Positions 1,108 to 12,573 of a stretch of DNA of 34,773 bases are shown piece after piece. The notes below the pieces were generated by a model. That model was given only the letters and a program-made list of their open reading frames with translations, did not search any database and was not told the DNA's origin. Made by a program: the position numbers and the translations under genes. Each line of letters begins with the position of its first letter. Position 1 is the first letter of the stretch. Source of the DNA: a virus. Where the stretch lies: positions 1 to 34,773 of the IMG/VR virus record IMGVR_UViG_3300031963_000506. The stretch is one strand, 5' to 3'.

Positions 1108-1141
1108 AATAAAAACTCCCAGGGGTGGACACCCCCAGGAG
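1108..1141 (-). terminator. Intrinsic terminator after the 87-aa gene
   Basis: On the minus strand a GC-rich hairpin (outer CTCC/GGAG, inner CCCC/GGGG) is followed directly by TTTTTATTT. It lies between the 87-aa gene ending at 1200 and the phosphoesterase start at 1002. It fits the end of the leftward tail operon. The rest of 1003-1199 holds no ORF I can support. Confidence 0.7.
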
Positions 1142-1475: not shown

Positions 1476-2981
1476 TTATAATCCGTATCTTGATTTTAGT
1501 GCGTTGTAGTTTTGTGATACCTCTGATGCAGATAGTGCTCTGTTGTACATTATGGCTTGTGCTATCTTGCCATTAAAATATGCAAATGGAGAATTTATCC
1601 CATTAACTCCTAATTTAACACCTGATGGAGGTGATGGATATGTATCTAATATAACTGCTTTTGTATTATTTAATTGACCATTTAAATATCCACTAAGGAC
1701 ACTTCCGTTATAAGATATTGAAACATTATACCAAGTACTTGTGTTTATTGTCCCATTAAAAGTCATGTCATATGCTGCCCCATTTCCATGAAAGACTGGT
1801 GTACCACTATTCAAATACAATCCAAAAGCACGTCCATCATTATTATCTATACCTCCACCAACAATCCAACCTTGAGTCAAATTTGTAACATTAAACCATA
1901 CAGAAAAAGATTTTGCTAAGTTTCCACCTGGAAACATATATGGTGTAGCAACAAAATCATTTGTCCCGTCAAACACAATACTTCCACCATTTGCACTACT
2001 ATAAGTAGGCCCATTAATTAATGTTGCATTATTTCCATTTCCACTAATGTCCGTCCAAGTAATTCCTGTTCCAGGATATGAAAGTGGGTTTCCTGCATCA
2101 AGGTTTACTACTAAACCATCAGTAACAATTTGTGAATAAGATGTCCAATATCCATTTGTATTTAGCCATGTTGCGGCAGCACCAGCATTAGCAAATGTTT
2201 GTGGAGTTCCTGCTATTCTAGCTACATATTGAGCTATGTCTATAAAAGAAGCGTCTGTTTTAGCTGTAGATCTCCAGAATCCTACAGAGGCTGTTGTAGG
2301 TGCTGCTGTAAAACTTCTAACAGCACGAACTCCTAAATTACTAGTTTTAGCATCTGTTGATTGTCCTCCATTTGTCATTCTTGTATAAGTTGCAAGTGTT
2401 GAACTATTTTGTGAAGATGTCCAATAATCAAGAGCGGGAAAGCTACCGAGGAAACTTCTATTGATATATAATTTAGCCATTTCATCTGTACTAGGTAAAA
2501 ACCAATCACTAAAACCTCCACCGTTATGTGCAGCTGCAATTGATGCTGCTATTGGTCTAGTAACACATCCTGCTAATATATTTGTTGTATTAGTAACTCC
2601 ACCACCCAAAGCAGTACTTGTACTAATGCTGGTACCACTGCAACCCCATCCTGCAAAATCTGATTGATCTGATGTTGCAGCAATCAATCCCTTCTGAACA
2701 TTAGCATCATATCCAGGATCTCCAGGTTGTAGTATATATGCTACTATTCCTCCTAAAGCAGATTGACCAATTGTATAACTTGTTGATACAGGTGTTGGCT
2801 GGTTGTTAGCAGGCACCTCTGTAGCAATAACATAACCAAGCTCTTCATCAGGTCCATTCCACCAGGGAAGCCCTGTAGCAGCAAATCCTGCTGTTGGTAT
2901 TCCTACAGCTAGATTTCCCACCTGTTCTGTACCAGCTATAGCTGCTCCTGTGTTTCTAGCAAAAGGTCTTGCTGTTGGCAT
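1476..2981 (-). CDS. Tail adhesin with DUF1566-like and LamG-like domains
   Basis: A 501-residue protein. The N-terminus (about 1-60, with WWNGPDEELGYVIA at 40-53) looks like a virion-anchoring segment. Residues about 75-224 match the DUF1566/Lcl-type fold seen in many phage tail proteins: GGGFSDWFLPSTDEM at 154-168, YWTSS at 186-190, and a closing GVRAVRSF. Residues about 290-500 look like a concanavalin A/LamG-like lectin fold, with DISGNGNNATL, a following FDGTNDFV, and the typical end GKIAQAIMYNRALSASEV. Such domains bind glycans or surface polymers, so this is probably a receptor-binding tail-tip or fibre protein. It is the last large gene of a tandem fibre set. The domain calls come from motifs; the receptor is unknown. 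Confidence 0.8.
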   Translation of the reverse strand: MPTARPFARNTGAAIAGTEQVGNLAVGIPTAGFAATGLPWWNGPDEELGYVIATEVPANNQPTPVSTSYTIGQSALGGIVAYILQPGDPGYDANVQKGLIAATSDQSDFAGWGCSGTSISTSTALGGGVTNTTNILAGCVTRPIAASIAAAHNGGGFSDWFLPSTDEMAKLYINRSFLGSFPALDYWTSSQNSSTLATYTRMTNGGQSTDAKTSNLGVRAVRSFTAAPTTASVGFWRSTAKTDASFIDIAQYVARIAGTPQTFANAGAAATWLNTNGYWTSYSQIVTDGLVVNLDAGNPLSYPGTGITWTDISGNGNNATLINGPTYSSANGGSIVFDGTNDFVATPYMFPGGNLAKSFSVWFNVTNLTQGWIVGGGIDNNDGRAFGLYLNSGTPVFHGNGAAYDMTFNGTINTSTWYNVSISYNGSVLSGYLNGQLNNTKAVILDTYPSPPSGVKLGVNGINSPFAYFNGKIAQAIMYNRALSASEVSQNYNALKSRYGL

Positions 2982-2991
2982 AACTTATTAA

Positions 2992-3696
2992 TTAACAAGT
3001 GACAAGAACATTGGTTGTCCATGTAGAATCGTCTCCTGTTGAATTTATATTGAAATAGTAGTTTATCTTATTTAAAATGAATCCATAAGGGTTTGCTTGT
3101 CCACAATATGTTGTATAGTTTCCTGCAGGAGGAACAGCAAATCCTACACCAAATTGAAGGTTTTGTAATGTGGATGCTCTCACTACATAAATCTCAATAA
3201 AATCTCCAACCACTGCTCCAAGGTTGCTGTTAGGTATGTCCCCTGGACTATTGTATTGAAGGGGATATACACCACCTACAAAAAATGTTCCTGCAGGTGC
3301 ACCTGTGGATGTAAATGTAGTCCATGCTCCTCCATTCTTTCTAAATATAAATCTTATGTCTCCTTGAGCACCAGGATTTATTCTAGTTCTACATATTGCA
3401 AAGAAAGAACCAAGTGTTGATAGAGTGGTGGTAGTAGTTGTGGAAGAACTGGTTGATGTTGTAGATGTAGTGCTTGTAGAAGATGTAGAGGTGGTGGTAG
3501 TGAGAGAATTAAGCTGGTTTTGAAGAAGTACCAATGTACTCTGCAAACTACACACCTTTGCCTCAGCTTTCTGAAAAGCCTCTGTGACAGTGTCACAGGT
3601 TTCTATTGTTGTGCATACCAAGTTGGGTCCTACGTAGTTTACACTATCAGAGGAATATTGTGGTTGACCGCAAGGATCAGTTGATGTACAAGACAT
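2992..3696 (-). CDS. Tail fibre-like protein with Thr/Ser-rich linker
   Basis: A 234-residue protein. Residues about 15-60 carry the module shared with the two genes before it: an aromatic-x-GPNL-x-C pattern, then a short coiled-coil-like helix ending in KVCSL. A low-complexity Thr/Ser tract follows at about 65-93. The C-terminal ~140 residues are rich in Gly, Asn and aromatics and look beta-rich, as in fibre heads. The likely role is an appendage built on a common N-terminal anchor, with the Thr/Ser tract as a flexible spacer and the C-terminus as the binding head. The specific function is inference. It follows the 67-aa gene by 17 nt. Confidence 0.65.
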   Translation of the reverse strand: MSCTSTDPCGQPQYSSDSVNYVGPNLVCTTIETCDTVTEAFQKAEAKVCSLQSTLVLLQNQLNSLTTTTSTSSTSTTSTTSTSSSTTTTTTLSTLGSFFAICRTRINPGAQGDIRFIFRKNGGAWTTFTSTGAPAGTFFVGGVYPLQYNSPGDIPNSNLGAVVGDFIEIYVVRASTLQNLQFGVGFAVPPAGNYTTYCGQANPYGFILNKINYYFNINSTGDDSTWTTNVLVTC

Positions 3697-3713
3697 TTGT
3701 ATTTGATTTTAAA

Positions 3714-3917
3714 CTAAGGAGAGGTTGTTGTTGTTGTGGTTGTGGAAGATGGAATTACATTATTTATTTCCTGTTGAAGATTGTAGATTTCTGTAGTGAG
3801 TTCACACAGCTTCTGTTCAATCTTTTGAATTCCCACAGTGGCAATCTCCCCTTTATCTATTCCTGTGCAGGGAAGATTTGGACCTTTGTATATAAGATTA
3901 TCAGTGGCGATGGACAT
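3714..3917 (-). CDS. Short fibre-anchor-like protein
   Basis: A 67-residue protein consisting almost only of the shared module: IYKGPNL-x-C near the N-terminus, a helix with QKIEQKLCELTTEIYNL, and a C-terminal SSTTTTTTTSP tract where the neighbouring gene has its Thr/Ser linker. It looks like a fibre protein reduced to anchor plus linker. It could be a real accessory subunit or the remnant of a longer fibre gene that lost its head domain. It ends in TAG, 17 nt before the next ATG. Confidence 0.6.
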   Translation of the reverse strand: MSIATDNLIYKGPNLPCTGIDKGEIATVGIQKIEQKLCELTTEIYNLQQEINNVIPSSTTTTTTTSP

Positions 3918-3926
3918 GAGTTAGGT

Positions 3927-5009
3927 TTAAGGAATGTACATAATGTAATAGCATCCAAGACCAGGCTGGAAGTTATTGTGACCAAGTCCACCTCCTGTAT
4001 TAGCTACATTCACACTTGTGCTCACTGTTACACCAGTGACAGAGCTACTGGTTGGTTGTGTACTTCCTCCTCCTACACCAAATCCTCCAGATCCGCCACT
4101 TTCATTTTTAGGTACATATGACCAAGTGTGAGTGTGACCTGGGTCTGTAACAGTGCTTATTGCTGTAGCAGTGTGAGTGTGTGAAGGAATTTGATTTACA
4201 GAGAGTACCACTTGGTTAGCGCCTGCTGTTCCAAGGAAGGTGTATGAGGGATTACCTGCAACAGTTGGGTCTACAGCTGCATTCATTGCTCCTCCACCCA
4301 TGCCACTTGTTACACCAACACCAACACGTCCTCTTTTATCAGGTGTGCCATTGTTTCCATTACAGAGATAGATTTTCTCCCAATCACCAATTCCTGCACC
4401 TGTAACATCAAATCTACCTGACAGTGGGCCATAATATTCTACAACAGTGAAAGGCACCATTCTGTTGTAGTATTTTGTACCTGTACCAAGGCTAGCCAAA
4501 TAGGTGGCTATGTAGGAATTGATTTCAGAAATCTTTACATAGTTGGCATTAACATTTGTAGAAAGAGCTGTTAATGCTACATCTACAGAACAAAGCTTTG
4601 TTATTGTGGCTTGTAGAATGTCATGTGTGTCTGAGGAAGCAGTGACACCAGTGAGACAGTCAATTGTATAATTAGCATTGAGAATGGTTATATCATTCTG
4701 AACTTGTGTCACTTTCTGGTCTACCTCACAAATTGCTCTCAGAAGAGCATTGATTACATTAGGGAGATTGAGAGTTTCACAATCCACCAGGTATTTATCC
4801 ACAATCTCACAAATCACATTAGGGCTAATATTAAGAATAATACCCTCTCCGTCAAGCACGGATGTAATGAAACCAATCAAAGATTGTTCCACATATGAGA
4901 GAGAATCTCCGTTCTTAATTCCAAGAACTGGTACATCCACTCCTGTATATTTAACGCATTTGTCAGAAACTATTTCTGTACATCCATTATAGCAATTAGA
5001 ACAAGACAT
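3927..5009 (-). CDS. Tail fibre with collar-type head domain
   Basis: A 360-residue protein. The N-terminus is Cys-rich (MSCSNCYNGC) and carries a version of the shared anchor (CVKYTGVDVPVLGI at 18-31). A helical middle of about 60-170 residues looks like a fibre shaft. Residues about 186-360 match the phage tail collar family: LCNGNNGTPDKRGR at 215-228, IPSHTH at 274-279, a second GHTHTW at 291-296, and the closing aromatic YYIMYIP. In related fibres, HxH motifs near the tip bind iron ions inside the trimer. The protein is probably trimeric and receptor-facing. It starts directly after the stop of the 88-aa gene, consistent with translational coupling. Confidence 0.8.
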   Translation of the reverse strand: MSCSNCYNGCTEIVSDKCVKYTGVDVPVLGIKNGDSLSYVEQSLIGFITSVLDGEGIILNISPNVICEIVDKYLVDCETLNLPNVINALLRAICEVDQKVTQVQNDITILNANYTIDCLTGVTASSDTHDILQATITKLCSVDVALTALSTNVNANYVKISEINSYIATYLASLGTGTKYYNRMVPFTVVEYYGPLSGRFDVTGAGIGDWEKIYLCNGNNGTPDKRGRVGVGVTSGMGGGAMNAAVDPTVAGNPSYTFLGTAGANQVVLSVNQIPSHTHTATAISTVTDPGHTHTWSYVPKNESGGSGGFGVGGGSTQPTSSSVTGVTVSTSVNVANTGGGLGHNNFQPGLGCYYIMYIP

Positions 5010-5276
5010 TTATTTATATTTTAAGGTTTTCACTCTGCTCGCAATCATATTCACCGTATATGATGGCAGATAACTTGGGTTAAAATACTTAGAGGTGAGT
5101 ATTTTTTTGTATTGAATTAAATCATACAAGGCTTCTGTAGGCACAGGTTGATTTAACATATACACAACATTATTGTACATATTGCTTCCAAGCTCTGCTA
5201 TTCTGCAGTCTATTTCCTTCAGAAGCGCAGGGATGCTTGAACACTCTGGACAATTTGTTAGTCTAGGTGATAACAT
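5010..5276 (-). CDS. Small virion-associated protein (88 aa)
   Basis: The ATG at 5276 gives MLSPRLTNCPECSS and fits directly after the stop of the 30-aa Cys-rich gene at 5278. An upstream in-frame start at 5333 would overlap that gene and is rejected. The protein has a CPEC pair, a helical core (IPALLKEIDCRIAEL) and an aromatic C-terminal half. I recognise it only as a type of small protein often placed between connector and fibre genes in Bacteroidota phages; the exact role is unknown. Confidence 0.65.
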   Translation of the reverse strand: MLSPRLTNCPECSSIPALLKEIDCRIAELGSNMYNNVVYMLNQPVPTEALYDLIQYKKILTSKYFNPSYLPSYTVNMIASRVKTLKYK

Positions 5277-5277
5277 T

Positions 5278-5370
5278 TTAATTAGATTTGGTGACGCATG
5301 CTGAACAAAGACCGTTAACCAATTGACAGCCACATCCTACATTAGCGCCACAGTTTCTACAAGATGCCAT
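5278..5370 (-). CDS. Cys-rich microprotein (30 aa), possible zinc knuckle
   Basis: The ATG at 5370 opens a 30-codon frame ending in TAA at 5278-5280. The peptide holds CRNC, CGC and a final CSAC: seven cysteines in 30 residues, enough for one or two metal sites. It sits 2 nt after the preceding gene and 1 nt before the next, so it fills the gap exactly, which supports it as a real gene. The function is unknown; it could be a structural zinc knuckle in the tail or a cofactor for fibre assembly. Confidence 0.6.
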   Translation of the reverse strand: MASCRNCGANVGCGCQLVNGLCSACVTKSN

Positions 5371-5372
5371 GA

Positions 5373-5936
5373 TTAATAGAAGTTTACAAGGTAATTGTTT
5401 CCAGTGCAACCACAATTATTCTTAACAAAGTTATCCAACATCATGTTTGCCTGATTATAGAGTTTTGTAGCCTCTGTTTCTGCGCAGTTGTTACCAGCAG
5501 CAATGGCTCCCTGTATGAAGAAACTAATGGATGTTAGATTCACCTTAGCTTGGGTTTTTATAGCTCTGTCACATTCCATCATATCCAGCTTCATAAAGGC
5601 TTCATCAAATTTCTCTTGCAGCTGCTCAATACGCATAATTGATTTCTCAACATAATTCTCGTACGCAGGAGCTACAGAATATTTCAAACGATAGATGCCA
5701 TCAGGAAGAGGTTGTTGGCTTCCTACAGGAACCAGCCCAAGATTGGACATTGTAAAGACATTAAAATCCTGTACGCTGAATGGTTTAAGTATTGTACCAA
5801 ATCCAGGGACAGTGACTTCAATTGTAGCACTAGAAACAGAAGGGGGATCTGTTGGGTAGGTGGAAGCATCAGCAACCCCAAGCGTATATTTACTATACGT
5901 TGGAATAACCAACAAATCTAGTTTTAATTCTGCCAT
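5373..5936 (-). CDS. Virion structural protein, putative (187 aa)
   Basis: The N-terminal ~90 residues look beta-rich (Val/Thr/Pro pattern, ending in LPDGIYRLKYSVAP). The C-terminal half is helical and includes a Cys-containing helix (MKLDMMECDRA) and a final NNCGCTGNNYLV. The beta-then-helix layout and the position between a tail-type protein and the fibre genes suggest a tail or baseplate-like component. I do not recognise a named family. A hairpin terminator lies just upstream, so this gene begins a sub-operon or depends on read-through. Confidence 0.6.
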   Translation of the reverse strand: MAELKLDLLVIPTYSKYTLGVADASTYPTDPPSVSSATIEVTVPGFGTILKPFSVQDFNVFTMSNLGLVPVGSQQPLPDGIYRLKYSVAPAYENYVEKSIMRIEQLQEKFDEAFMKLDMMECDRAIKTQAKVNLTSISFFIQGAIAAGNNCAETEATKLYNQANMMLDNFVKNNCGCTGNNYLVNFY

Positions 5937-6029: not shown

Positions 6030-7193
6030 TTATGGAATTCTAGTTGAAGTGGTGCTGGTTGAAGGCCATATGGTGGTGGTTGTAGACGTTGTAGTCACAC
6101 AAGCTCCATTGATAGCGCTTACAGTGCCAAGACCAGCATTAAGAACAGTTTCAAGGGCAGTTTCAAAAGCACCTCCAGCAAGAACAGCAATTATTACCAT
6201 GGAGTCTTGATATACATAGTCTCCCCATTGATAAGCTGAACGATCAAAATCGTTAAACTTAATGTAATATGTGCTGTAAGTGGAACCGCTATTTACATAG
6301 CTCTCAAAGTTCTCATTGTAGCCACCCATTCTGTAGAGATGCTTCAAATATCCAGCTTGATAGCTGTAGAAGTTTTTCTCCAGTTGAGCAATCTCGTCAG
6401 AAGTACCAGTGGCGTAAGAAGAACGCTGCTGAACAGTGGCAGTTGCTACAATGTTACAGCTGTCAGGCACAATAAAATCTGCTGTGGTGGCTGGACCGCT
6501 GTACACAAATGTACGGAACCACATACGATCATACTCGTAAGGGAAGGCAGCCACATCACAAGGTTGACCATACTTGGTCAAAGGCTTAGCAGTGATGCGA
6601 AGAATAGCACTTGCGTTGTTACCCAGACGCTGGAATTGATAGAACTGATTCAAGTTAATGTCATCAGGATTGATTCCAGGAGCTTGTCTTTGCAGAGCAA
6701 TAATCAGTTTGTCAATCAGACCAGGAACATCCACGTTTGTACAAGGGTTAGCACCACAGTCACAACAAGGAGCTTCAACAGTTACGGAACGAGTGAAACC
6801 ATTGAAATACAGAGTGTCCAGATAGCTGGAATGTGCACGAAGAGTGAGAGTTACGATTTCTCCACATTTTACGTTAAAACCACTAACGTCAGTGATTTGA
6901 ACCAGAGGAGTGGCGCAACCAGTCACTTTGTACCATTCAGTTACATTTGAAGTAACACCTGTACCGCCTTTAATCTTATCTGAACGCTTAGAGCCTTGCA
7001 AATAAGTGTTTTGACGGCCCTGCGCAATGTAAAAATAGGGAGCTGCAGCAATGTTACCTGCTGTAGCAAGGGAGTAGTCATTCCTAAAAACACCTAGTGT
7101 TCCAGGAGCGAGGTCTTGCGTAGATCCAGAACTAGGGAGCGCAGTTTGCCCTACTGGTACTACGAAGAGCGTAGTCAATGAAAAATCAGCCAT
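6030..7193 (-). CDS. Major tail/virion protein candidate (387 aa)
   Basis: A 387-residue, mostly beta-type protein. The N-terminus runs into SGSTQDLAPGTLGVFRNDY. A Cys cluster (CCDCGANPC, near 143-151) is followed by a helical segment and a second beta-rich part. The C-terminus is a Thr/Ser-rich tail (TTTSTTTTIWPSTSTTSTR) like those of the fibre genes. It has a gene space to itself: a 30-nt leader before it and a strong terminator after it, as expected for an abundantly made protein. A tail-tube, tail-sheath or decoration role is possible. I found no decisive motif. Confidence 0.6.
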   Translation of the reverse strand: MADFSLTTLFVVPVGQTALPSSGSTQDLAPGTLGVFRNDYSLATAGNIAAAPYFYIAQGRQNTYLQGSKRSDKIKGGTGVTSNVTEWYKVTGCATPLVQITDVSGFNVKCGEIVTLTLRAHSSYLDTLYFNGFTRSVTVEAPCCDCGANPCTNVDVPGLIDKLIIALQRQAPGINPDDINLNQFYQFQRLGNNASAILRITAKPLTKYGQPCDVAAFPYEYDRMWFRTFVYSGPATTADFIVPDSCNIVATATVQQRSSYATGTSDEIAQLEKNFYSYQAGYLKHLYRMGGYNENFESYVNSGSTYSTYYIKFNDFDRSAYQWGDYVYQDSMVIIAVLAGGAFETALETVLNAGLGTVSAINGACVTTTSTTTTIWPSTSTTSTRIP

Positions 7194-9095: not shown

Positions 9096-10649
9096 TTAGA
9101 ACTGTGGAATCTCTTCAATCAACACTGTACGAGACAGGTCTTCAATAAAGATGTCACAACGGTCTTTCATCCAGATTTCATATCCAGGGAATTTGTTAGC
9201 AGAACTCATACCCTGAGATTTAGCAAAACCTAAGTGGTGACGAGTACCGTCAATATATCCCCAAGTCATAGAAGGAGCACCTTTCATGCGCACTTCACGG
9301 ATGTTGTTCACCAAGGAACCATCAGACATAGGAGATACATCAAACACCATGAATACAGGGGTTGATTTCTTATTCTGACCAAATTCCAGGTTAGTTTGAG
9401 GCAGGTCAAGTTCCTTCAGGTGAATCAGTTCAACACGACCAGTCTCACGAGTAACCATTGCATCGAATGCAAAGTTGTAAGTGATGTGTTGTCCTTCTCC
9501 CTGGAGGTAACGATTACCACTGTCAGCCATGAAGGTGAGTCCGCTATTCAAAGCGTCAGCCTTCAGAGCTTGTTGGAACACGTCAAAACCAGCTTCATTT
9601 GTGTACATTTTAACACGACGGTCTTTAACATCCACACGACGATAGAACAGGTCACCAAATACGCTACGAATTAAGTTTGCACTAAATTCACCACGATTGT
9701 ATTGAACCAAGTTACCGTTGTTACGCATACGATGGTAAACACCAGCAGAGGTACGCTTCAGCTCCTGCTTAGAACCATTGCTCTTCACAGTGCCTGGACG
9801 AGACCAAATCATACGCTTCACCTTCAGTTCCAGCATAGATTTACGCATCCAGAATTCAATAAACGGCTCCCATTTAACATCATTGCGTGTGAGAGGCAGT
9901 TGATTACGACGCTGAGGAGCATACACCAGAATGTCCAAAGGACGACCAGCAGCATCACGCATCATTTTGTCATCAGCCCACTCAGTGATTTTGTGTTCAA
10001 AACCATATGCAGAACCCAGAGATTCAAACATAGTGATTTGCTCACCCAAACGAGGAAGACCCAGCAAATCTTGGTCAAACTCACCAATAGCAGCATCAAC
10101 CAGTTCCAGTTCAATACCCACTTGCAAGAAGGTAGAGCTTACGAAATCCACTGTAGGATTATCAGTAACCAGAGTGAAGCTGTACAGGAAGCCCATGTTC
10201 CAAGGAACGGGATCTTTAATAACGTAGAAACGAGGACCATACTGGCGAGAACCTACAGAAACGATGGCGTTCTTAGAGAACTCGTTTGTGTCTAACACCA
10301 ATTGGAACTCTTGACCATCAATACCAGGCTTACTTAAATCAGTAGTGGCGGTTGGAATGTTGATGATTTTGGGGAATTTGTACGGAACAGCCACTTGCCA
10401 TTTCCAAGCATCACTGTTATTATCAATGTAATAAGGTGTGCTCTTGTTAATCATGTCAAGAAAGTCGTTGCTGTACAGAGAGCTCTGTGTATAGAGGCTG
10501 ATGATTTTCTTATCGTAATCAGCAGGCTCTGTAGAGTGGAAGCTCTCCAGGTGGTTAGCGTCTGTCAGCTTTCCCACAGCTCGTTTGTCCATAGAAGCGA
10601 CACGAGCGTACGTAAAACCAGTAAGACCTGGGATTGTTTGAATTGCCAT
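9096..10649 (-). CDS. Major capsid protein, putative
   Basis: A 517-residue protein. The call rests on position directly after a scaffold-like gene in the TerL-portal-scaffold order, on a length suited to an HK97-fold capsid protein, on a strong hairpin after the gene, and on composition: soluble, with a mixed alpha/beta pattern throughout. Conspicuous segments are a middle WEPFIEFWMRKSMLELKVKR and a C-terminal PGYEIWMKDRCDIFIEDLSR, of a style I associate with capsid proteins of Bacteroidota phages. I cannot show the HK97 fold from sequence alone, and no cleavage site is obvious. An alternative would be another abundant head protein, but no better capsid candidate exists in this block. Confidence 0.75.
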   Translation of the reverse strand: MAIQTIPGLTGFTYARVASMDKRAVGKLTDANHLESFHSTEPADYDKKIISLYTQSSLYSNDFLDMINKSTPYYIDNNSDAWKWQVAVPYKFPKIINIPTATTDLSKPGIDGQEFQLVLDTNEFSKNAIVSVGSRQYGPRFYVIKDPVPWNMGFLYSFTLVTDNPTVDFVSSTFLQVGIELELVDAAIGEFDQDLLGLPRLGEQITMFESLGSAYGFEHKITEWADDKMMRDAAGRPLDILVYAPQRRNQLPLTRNDVKWEPFIEFWMRKSMLELKVKRMIWSRPGTVKSNGSKQELKRTSAGVYHRMRNNGNLVQYNRGEFSANLIRSVFGDLFYRRVDVKDRRVKMYTNEAGFDVFQQALKADALNSGLTFMADSGNRYLQGEGQHITYNFAFDAMVTRETGRVELIHLKELDLPQTNLEFGQNKKSTPVFMVFDVSPMSDGSLVNNIREVRMKGAPSMTWGYIDGTRHHLGFAKSQGMSSANKFPGYEIWMKDRCDIFIEDLSRTVLIEEIPQF

Positions 10650-12042: not shown

Positions 12043-12573
12043 CTAATCAAGTTTGTTTACCACTGTGTCATTAATTAGCCTAAAAGAGCGTATAGGAGCC
12101 AAGTCTGTAAGTGTCACCTGATGGATTTCCACTCCCCATTTCTTAGCTTCCACTCTGGCTTTCTTGCTCAAGGTGTTGTCTATTTCTGTATCAATACACT
12201 CATCTAAAGTTTTGTCCATGATGATGTTTTTGATGATGGACTGTGTCATGTCTGACAAAGCATCCTGGGCATCATACACCTCCAGAAGGAAGATTTTCAC
12301 ATCCACTATTCTGTATTTCACTAGTCCCTTCACCACAATGTTCTGCCTATCCTTTGTATACAATGATTGGGGAGGAAGACTGAGGGTGGTGACAACAACG
12401 TGTTGATTAATCACCTCATCGAAGAAGGGGATTTTGAAATACACTCCAGGGGACACAACACATTTATATTTGCCCCATCTCATTAACACTCCCATTTCAT
12501 AATGCCTGATTATGAATACAGGCAGGAGCTGCTCTATCCAATTGGACAGGAGCTCAATTAGTTTGTCAAACAT
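12043..12573 (-). CDS. SPFH/Band 7 (stomatin-prohibitin type) protein
   Basis: A 176-residue protein. Residues 1-22 are a short amphipathic/hydrophobic N-terminus (LIELLSNWIEQLLPVFII), followed by the SPFH core: YEMGVLMRWGKYKCVVSPGV at 25-44, a strand-rich part with DRQNIVVKGLVKYRIVDV at 75-92, and the helix SIIKNIIMDKTLDECID. It ends near AKKWGVEIHQVTLTDLAPIR. Bacterial SPFH proteins (HflK/HflC, stomatins, flotillins) form membrane-bound ring cages. The long C-terminal coiled coil of those proteins is missing here. The gene is wedged between portal and scaffold and overlaps the portal stop by 1 nt, pointing to co-translation with virion genes. A membrane-linked role in prohead assembly or protease control is inference. 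Confidence 0.8.
   Translation of the reverse strand: MFDKLIELLSNWIEQLLPVFIIRHYEMGVLMRWGKYKCVVSPGVYFKIPFFDEVINQHVVVTTLSLPPQSLYTKDRQNIVVKGLVKYRIVDVKIFLLEVYDAQDALSDMTQSIIKNIIMDKTLDECIDTEIDNTLSKKARVEAKKWGVEIHQVTLTDLAPIRSFRLINDTVVNKLD

Follow-up and report, generated by a model that had tools for sequence, protein, structure and literature searches.

A common N-terminal module in three consecutive fibre-type genes of a crAss-like phage fragment

Three consecutive genes on the minus strand of this DNA, encoding proteins of 360, 67 and 234 aa, raise the question as to whether one phage particle carries several adhesins on a common virion dock. An earlier note, made from the letters alone, had taken them for fibre genes with one related N-terminal segment and completely different C-termini, arisen by duplication and head swapping. 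In order to address this we analysed the window, meaning the whole stretch of 34,773 bases, which is a complete IMG/VR record, together with related loci from other contigs.

The three proteins and their N-terminal module

All three ORFs are present as described. The 360-aa fibre-type protein (3927..5009) is predicted to have a distant module variant near its N-terminus (residues about 14-52, nt 4854-4970), then a stalk of helices and, at the C-terminus, a domain resembling those of tail collars. Residues 211-358 match the tail protein family phrog_8763 (3.6e-23), and the last 150 residues resemble domains of the phage tail collar and T4 Gp10 C-terminal type, with Pfam Gp10_C on this protein at 0.0029 and 19 bits, under the cut-off of 27 bits. 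The profile of the 360-type family matches the solved tail fibre 9qgo at 7e-4. An AF2 model of the protein was poor (mean pLDDT 61, pTM 0.25). We also considered repeats of the module inside the stalk and do not claim them: stretches 62-114 and 112-172 match each other at probability 51 and the module at 10 and 27, and against the true module segment they reach only 0.1 and 1.0. The 67-aa protein (3714..3917) has the module at residues about 5-44 (nt 3786-3905), continues in coiled-coil heptads and closes with seven Thr, Ser and Pro, and is here called 'headless'. In the 234-aa protein (2992..3696) a Cys-containing leader precedes the module (residues about 16-55, nt 3532-3651), followed by a coiled coil, a Ser/Thr linker (about 3421-3501) and a putative head (about 2992-3420). 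The three C-termini, a collar-type domain, a Thr tail and a putative head, thus differ as had been proposed, and a common N-terminal anchor on proteins with different C-termini is a feature of anchor-sharing fibre (RBP) systems.

The similarity of the N-termini, without which the proposal would fall, is significant, being close for the 67- and 234-aa proteins and distant for the 360-aa protein. Aligned directly, the N-termini of the 67- and 234-aa proteins give a score of 101, whereas shuffling gives a mean of 23.1 (sd 4.5) and no score as high in 5000 trials; the 67- and 360-aa N-termini score 52 (shuffle mean 24.7, reached in 2/5000), a weak signal that nevertheless exceeds chance, and the pair of 234 and 360 aa scores 34, which 351 of 5000 shuffles reached and which is not significant. 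A profile grown from the 67- and 234-aa proteins over 3302 ORFs, from 45 related loci and the window, took in the 360-aa protein (E 5e-6) in the fourth of five rounds, by which time it may already have included relatives of that protein. With the two sets in separate alignments, 49 rows of module proteins against 32 rows of 360-type proteins gave an hhalign probability of 94.8 (E 4.9e-8, score 39.8), compared with a maximum score of 21.2 in 200 column shuffles, none of which reached 39.8. On its own the 49-protein module profile finds the 67-aa protein at E 3e-23 and the 234-aa protein at 7.8e-23, and at E 1e-3 it finds none of 44 360-type proteins, that of the window standing at E 0.19. The relation of the 360-aa protein to the module is thus real, though distant, and is significant only from profile to profile.

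The module reads Y-x-G-P-N-L-x-C, followed by a helix with I/L-C-x-L that continues as a predicted coiled coil, and so agrees with the motif first noticed, an aromatic-x-G-x-N/D-x-C element with a Cys-x-Leu in the helix. Among the 49 aligned rows Tyr is kept in 48, Gly, two residues after it, in 46 and Cys in 39; other kept columns before the helix are Pro (38), Leu (44), Thr (37), Ile/Val (42) and Asp (41). The helix keeps Lys in 44, Asp in 42 and Cys in 37 of 48 ungapped rows. Hydrophobic residues then recur with a 4-3-4-3 spacing across ten positions (alignment columns 34, 38, 41, 45, 48, 52, 55, 59, 62 and 66), each 60-100% hydrophobic, a sign of a coiled coil from which we infer trimers. 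In the 67- and 234-aa proteins the module is covered by no Pfam family that passes its cut-off and by no PHROG with an E under 0.06, and neither the module nor the gene block was found described in a limited literature collection searched with limited terms.

Evidence on the location of such proteins comes from named phages. Neither the 234-aa N-terminus nor a longer 360-type consensus matched any phage record; a short module consensus reached phi17:2 and phi4:1 (E 0.2), as well as two phages of Burkholderia whose matches (E 1) we judged to be chance. In the cultured Cellulophaga phage phi4:1 the consensus matches within gp47, annotated in its record as a virion protein from experimental MS/MS, and by this annotation a relative of the module proteins is part of the virion. 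Its homologue in Cellulophaga phage phi17:2, gp048, matches the module at an hhalign probability of 94.9 (E 4.5e-8) and by HMM at 3.6e-10 among 19 proteins. For gp047, gp055, gp056 and gp057 of phi17:2, matches to the module or stalk profiles were weak or none and we make no claim. Leptolyngbya phage Lbo-JY46 encodes two module proteins in a row, one of them annotated as a tail fibre, after the gene of a 156-aa protein related to the N-terminal half of the 360-aa protein (hhalign 87.6). In all of these, phi4:1 gp47, phi17:2 gp048 and the Lbo-JY46 fibre genes, the module likewise stands at the N-terminus and the heads are others.

Virus group and neighbouring genes

The major capsid protein of the window (9096..10649, minus strand) matches Pfam PF23898 Crass_capsid at 1.2e-27 with 96.9 bits against a cut-off of 27, and in a PHROG search of the window proteins the portal matched phrog_6547 (1.6e-99) and the terminase phrog_6681 (1.5e-87). 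The portal is matched by 134 phage records, and among the 30 matches listed most are gut crAss-like phages. These crassvirus-family matches of capsid, portal and terminase identify the record, by sequence, as a fragment of a crAss-like phage (Crassvirales). A Band_7/SPFH (stomatin-like) protein (12043-12573, minus strand) is encoded between the portal gene and a gene for a 417-aa protein that is possibly a scaffold. The capsid, portal and 187-aa proteins of the window, and the module genes too, have relatives in Lbo-JY46 (our locus L050), whose recorded host is a cyanobacterium; crassviruses are otherwise described from Bacteroidetes (PMC10136315). The sole genome contig with a relative of the 187-aa protein, recorded as a Tissierellales MAG, was taken to be a stray phage contig.

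Directly upstream of the 360-aa gene lies the gene of an 88-aa protein (5010..5276, minus strand), in the position of tail hub B (THB) of crAss001. Its start was placed at a conserved ATG at 5276, the Met with which a 26-row alignment begins, and not at a GTG at 5333. Before it comes that of a 187-aa protein (5373..5936, minus strand), in the position of tail hub A (THA), which would comprise an FN3-like domain and three helices. Its AF2 model has a mean pLDDT of 87.3 and is FN3-like by VIA-align, with Z up to 8.4. A PDB fold search with the model met beta domains, FN3-like ones among them, with Z of 8.4 at most and no match reaching E 0.001; crAss001 gp38 was absent among the fold matches listed, these being filled by FN3-like domains. 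In BFVD the model matched a phi17:2 structural protein (4.0e-14), another entry (3.4e-6) and a 184-aa protein of cr118_1 (2.2e-4), the last of which is taken to be gp84 because that protein has 184 aa, and by its record. The 184-aa gene of cr118_1 adjoins a gp36-like gene. The profile of the 187-aa family also matches phi17:2 gp58 and Lbo-JY46.

Sequence comparison with the crAss001 hub proteins gave at most a weak C-terminal trace. With hhalign gp38 was met at E 0.0009-0.004 with a probability of 9-23, gp38 as query having found only 3 loci, too few for a good profile; the 88-aa family gave no sequence match to gp39, and neither the two proteins nor their families matched anything significant among solved structures. 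No relation of the 88-aa family to the module is claimed (probability 15). Further upstream a 387-aa protein (6030..7193, minus strand) stands where crassviruses have their auxiliary capsid protein (gp36 in crAss001). Among 15 proteins the profile of the 387-aa protein finds cr118_1 gp83 (E 0.003) and misses crAss001 gp36 (E 0.5), these two matching each other at 7e-4, and its relatives sit upstream of the 187-type gene in related loci. The 387-, 187- and 88-aa genes thus match, by position only, the order of auxiliary capsid protein, THA and THB that is seen in crAss001 (gp36, gp38 and gp39, with a homing endonuclease gene inserted) and in cr118_1 (gp83, gp84 and gp85).

Between the hub-like genes lies a 30-aa Cys-rich mini-protein, MASCRNCGANVGCGCQLVNGLCSACVTKSN (5278..5370, minus strand), below the usual size for gene calling. 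An ORF of 20-60 aa with at least four Cys directly follows the 187-type gene in 96 of 97 loci, near-identical contigs being unmerged, and the motifs CxxC, CxCxL and GxCxxC are kept among the 45 distinct sequences listed. Such Cys-rich mini-proteins (30-50 aa) may be an overlooked virion or assembly factor, perhaps zinc-binding. In loci L016, L032, L041, L045, L046 and L047 the THB-like protein forms part of an ORF of 397-493 aa, and Thr-rich stretches follow the conserved part in the long ORFs listed; in such loci the hub protein itself may carry a head.

On the downstream side the block is followed by a 501-aa protein (1476..2981, minus strand) with Laminin_G_3 at 1e-15 and Lcl_C at 7.6e-8, the latter just under the cut-off. 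It matches phrog_24074 (2e-38) and phrog_8510, a virion structural protein (1.5e-17). The module profile does not find this protein, which is likely to be a further adhesin. After an 87-aa ORF (1200-1463) a terminator-like hairpin with an 11-bp stem and a T-rich tail (1116..1141, minus strand) is a possible end of the gene block, terminator-like sites being no commoner in the window than in shuffles (4 vs 3.8).

Gene order, copy number and distal variation in related loci

A first set of 45 loci was fetched with the 67-aa module protein, so that module genes are present in it by selection and it was left out of the synteny counts; a 360-type gene, whole or cut, stands beside the module gene in 43 of them. 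For the counts we used a second set of 80 loci fetched with the 360-type family, keeping the 70 on contigs that were not in the first set, without merging contigs by similarity. Of the 66 second-set contigs with room for it, 64 have a module ORF whose start lies no more than 150 nt downstream of the 360-type gene. The misses are L059 and L129; an apparent fusion of collar and module in L129 comes from a frame shift at the collar end, probably an error, and was counted as a miss. On the other side, the distance from the end of an 88-type gene to the 360-type gene downstream of it is at most 150 nt in 66/67 contigs and about 160 nt in the remaining one, L112. In phi17:2 and phi4:1, unlike the window, the clear module gene is set apart from the hub-like genes by other virion genes.

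Second module ORFs are uncommon: of 41 second-set contigs that extend over 3 kb downstream, 5 have one, and 4 of these belong to a single group of relatives. Tandem adhesins are therefore not the rule, and the window, with two such genes, belongs to the less common kind. Across 19 loci with two module genes (the window and near-identical loci included), 36 of the 38 copies have their nearest relative in another genome and not beside them; the exceptions are a tie in L023 and one of the Lbo-JY46 copies. Neighbouring copies are 0.28 to 0.59 identical, those of the window 0.39. The duplication that had been suggested thus holds in so far as the copies are paralogous; a recent origin does not, since so many lie nearer to other genomes, and the duplication must be old. 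In several lineages the first copy resembles the first and the second the second; the second copy of the window, however, is most like copies that in other loci are the first or the only one (0.57). That copies are kept apart in at least some lineages would speak for distinct seats over one interchangeable dock. The idea of several adhesins per particle finds little backing here, given the 5/41 contigs with a second module gene, the many headless copies and neighbours that are old, diverged paralogues.

At most 41 residues follow the module in 21 of 51 distinct module ORFs, a list that includes ORFs cut by record ends (at least L032:9257-9397). Thr7-type tails, consisting of about seven Thr in mixed ACN codons, one or two residues and a stop, as at 3714-3743 in the 67-aa gene, end 23 of 97 module ORFs (360-type included); among 1323 other ORFs with a length of 60 aa or more, 11 end in this way. 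Such a tail is not crassvirus-specific: at least 85 ORFs in 74 of 80 loci listed have it, and a crassvirus marker is found in only 26 of the 80. We also considered whether a frameshift joins T-tailed proteins to a head encoded downstream, and rejected this for the window, where the shifted frames are open for 20 and 10 codons. With both frames tested, a shifted frame of at least 60 codons occurs in 7 of 40 T-tailed ORFs. In five of the seven (L018, L029, L031, L038 and L040:619) it is accounted for by the following gene, which encodes 160-383 aa and has an ATG of its own; the next ORF of L040:1995 has 80 aa, and in L046, where the frame enters the THA-like gene, the examined stretch contained no ATG.

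The 28 module ORFs with at least 80 residues beyond the module fall into 16 groups by head, 14 of them single. Related heads accompany 12/12 pairs with module identity of at least 80%, 5/31 at 60-80%, 4/67 at 50-60%, 2/160 at 40-50% and 1/108 below 40%, and fast divergence could explain part of this variation. In one trio of loci the distal part has been exchanged by recombination, with the crossover inside the module gene: in steps of 100 nt, the second module genes of L093 and L006 share 90-100% identity as far as nt about 1490 and 40-63% thereafter. Beyond that point L093 agrees instead with L084, at 93-99% for about 280 nt and again at 84-100% in the final 320 nt; the stretch between, about nt 1870-2330, is poorly matched by both L006 and L084. 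Head swapping is thus seen in relatives of the window gene, with L093 as a clear recombinant. For the 234-aa head itself the scan of close relatives returned one match, a contig carrying the same gene at 100% identity, and phage records gave none at E 1; comparison among relatives therefore bears out distal variation, with no relative showing exchange in the window gene.

Models for the module and comparison with known systems

On balance we think it probable that these are trimeric fibres which share an N-terminal docking module, vary distally and are seated near the tail hub, a reading built on the common module, the conserved gene order, the distal exchange in relatives and the annotated virion location of one relative. 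The three genes would encode fibre-type virion proteins of a crAss-like podovirus, and the docking-and-trimerisation module, a short Y-x-G-P-N-L-P-C-T-G-I element followed by a coiled-coil helix with Cys-x-Leu, would seat them side by side on one tail-collar platform. Gene order points to the hub as dock, most likely one formed by the 187- and 88-aa proteins, whose genes immediately precede the three. The constant member, with a stalk and a collar-type tip, would be the 360-aa protein, and the next gene or genes would combine a closer module variant with a variable distal part, exchanged by recombination or, as in the 67-aa protein, absent; receptors would presumably be bound by the heads. The earlier picture of a shared dock with swapped heads is thus largely right as to the shared module and head variation, its dock being placed by gene order.

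A serious rival, which we nevertheless hold to be rather unlikely, is a hierarchical fibre, in which only the 360-aa protein would sit on the hub and the modules of the 67- and 234-aa proteins would join its stalk or each other, as mixed trimers or branches. Consistent with it, the 360-aa copy is a distinct module variant beside a module gene in 64/66 contigs and neighbouring copies are diverged paralogues; in crAss001, moreover, the gp22 tail fibre docks on the hub and carries further fibre proteins (PMC10172136). A module common to all three N-termini is more simply explained by the same type of site. It is also possible, if unlikely, that the hub is addressed by slots, the module variants being read by distinct sites on a hub of the 187-aa, 88-aa and Cys-rich (30-50 aa) proteins, with headless proteins as constant plugs or mixed-trimer partners that set the heads shown.

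That the module only helps coiled-coil trimers to fold or to find their register and does not dock, its similarity among the proteins reflecting this shared requirement, seems quite improbable to us. Heptads do follow it in the 67- and 234-aa sequences, and more shortly in the 360-aa one, but the best-kept residues (Y, G, P, L, C and I) precede the coiled coil and copies are kept by gene position in several lineages, which fits a specific partner. Least probable, and held at low confidence, are head fibres, with the module seating trimers in capsid hexon pockets as capsid decorations. In crAss001 there are two kinds of head fibre, with gp21/gp29 in such pockets (PMC10172136), and the block of the window also comes after an auxiliary-capsid-like gene. 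Against this, the 360-type gene directly follows the hub-like pair, not a capsid gene, in 66/67 contigs, its product has a collar-type tip and tail-protein PHROGs, and the module shows no similarity to gp21 or gp29.

For the preferred reading, fibres docked near the hub, the closest known arrangement is in crAss001, where the N-terminus of a trimeric fibre, residues 1-26, is received by the hub of THA and THB (gp38 and gp39; PMC10172136). That phage, with its tail fibre gp22 on the hub, belongs to the same virus order, and its hub genes likewise come after an auxiliary capsid gene; its fibre genes lie between portal and MCP, whereas those of the window adjoin the hub-like genes. The module was not found among crAss001 gp21-gp26 and gp29 (best E 0.03), gp22 having no significant similarity. 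A small anchor recognisable by sequence marks fibre genes in environmental crAss-like phages, and the fixed gene block offers a place in which to seek host-binding heads and to test how a crassvirus hub picks its fibres.

Anchor-sharing RBP systems include the T7-type gp17 anchors of Klebsiella phages and the tailspikes of Ackermannviridae, in which a conserved N-terminal anchor is combined with exchangeable heads and several fibre genes stand in a row. Compared with these, the module described here is much smaller and apparently unrelated, and it is borne also by constant collar-type and headless proteins. Tentaclins, which are anchored C-terminally, are a different family (PMC10743442). A shared anchor with swapped distal ends is a known phage strategy, of which the three-gene block is a new example.
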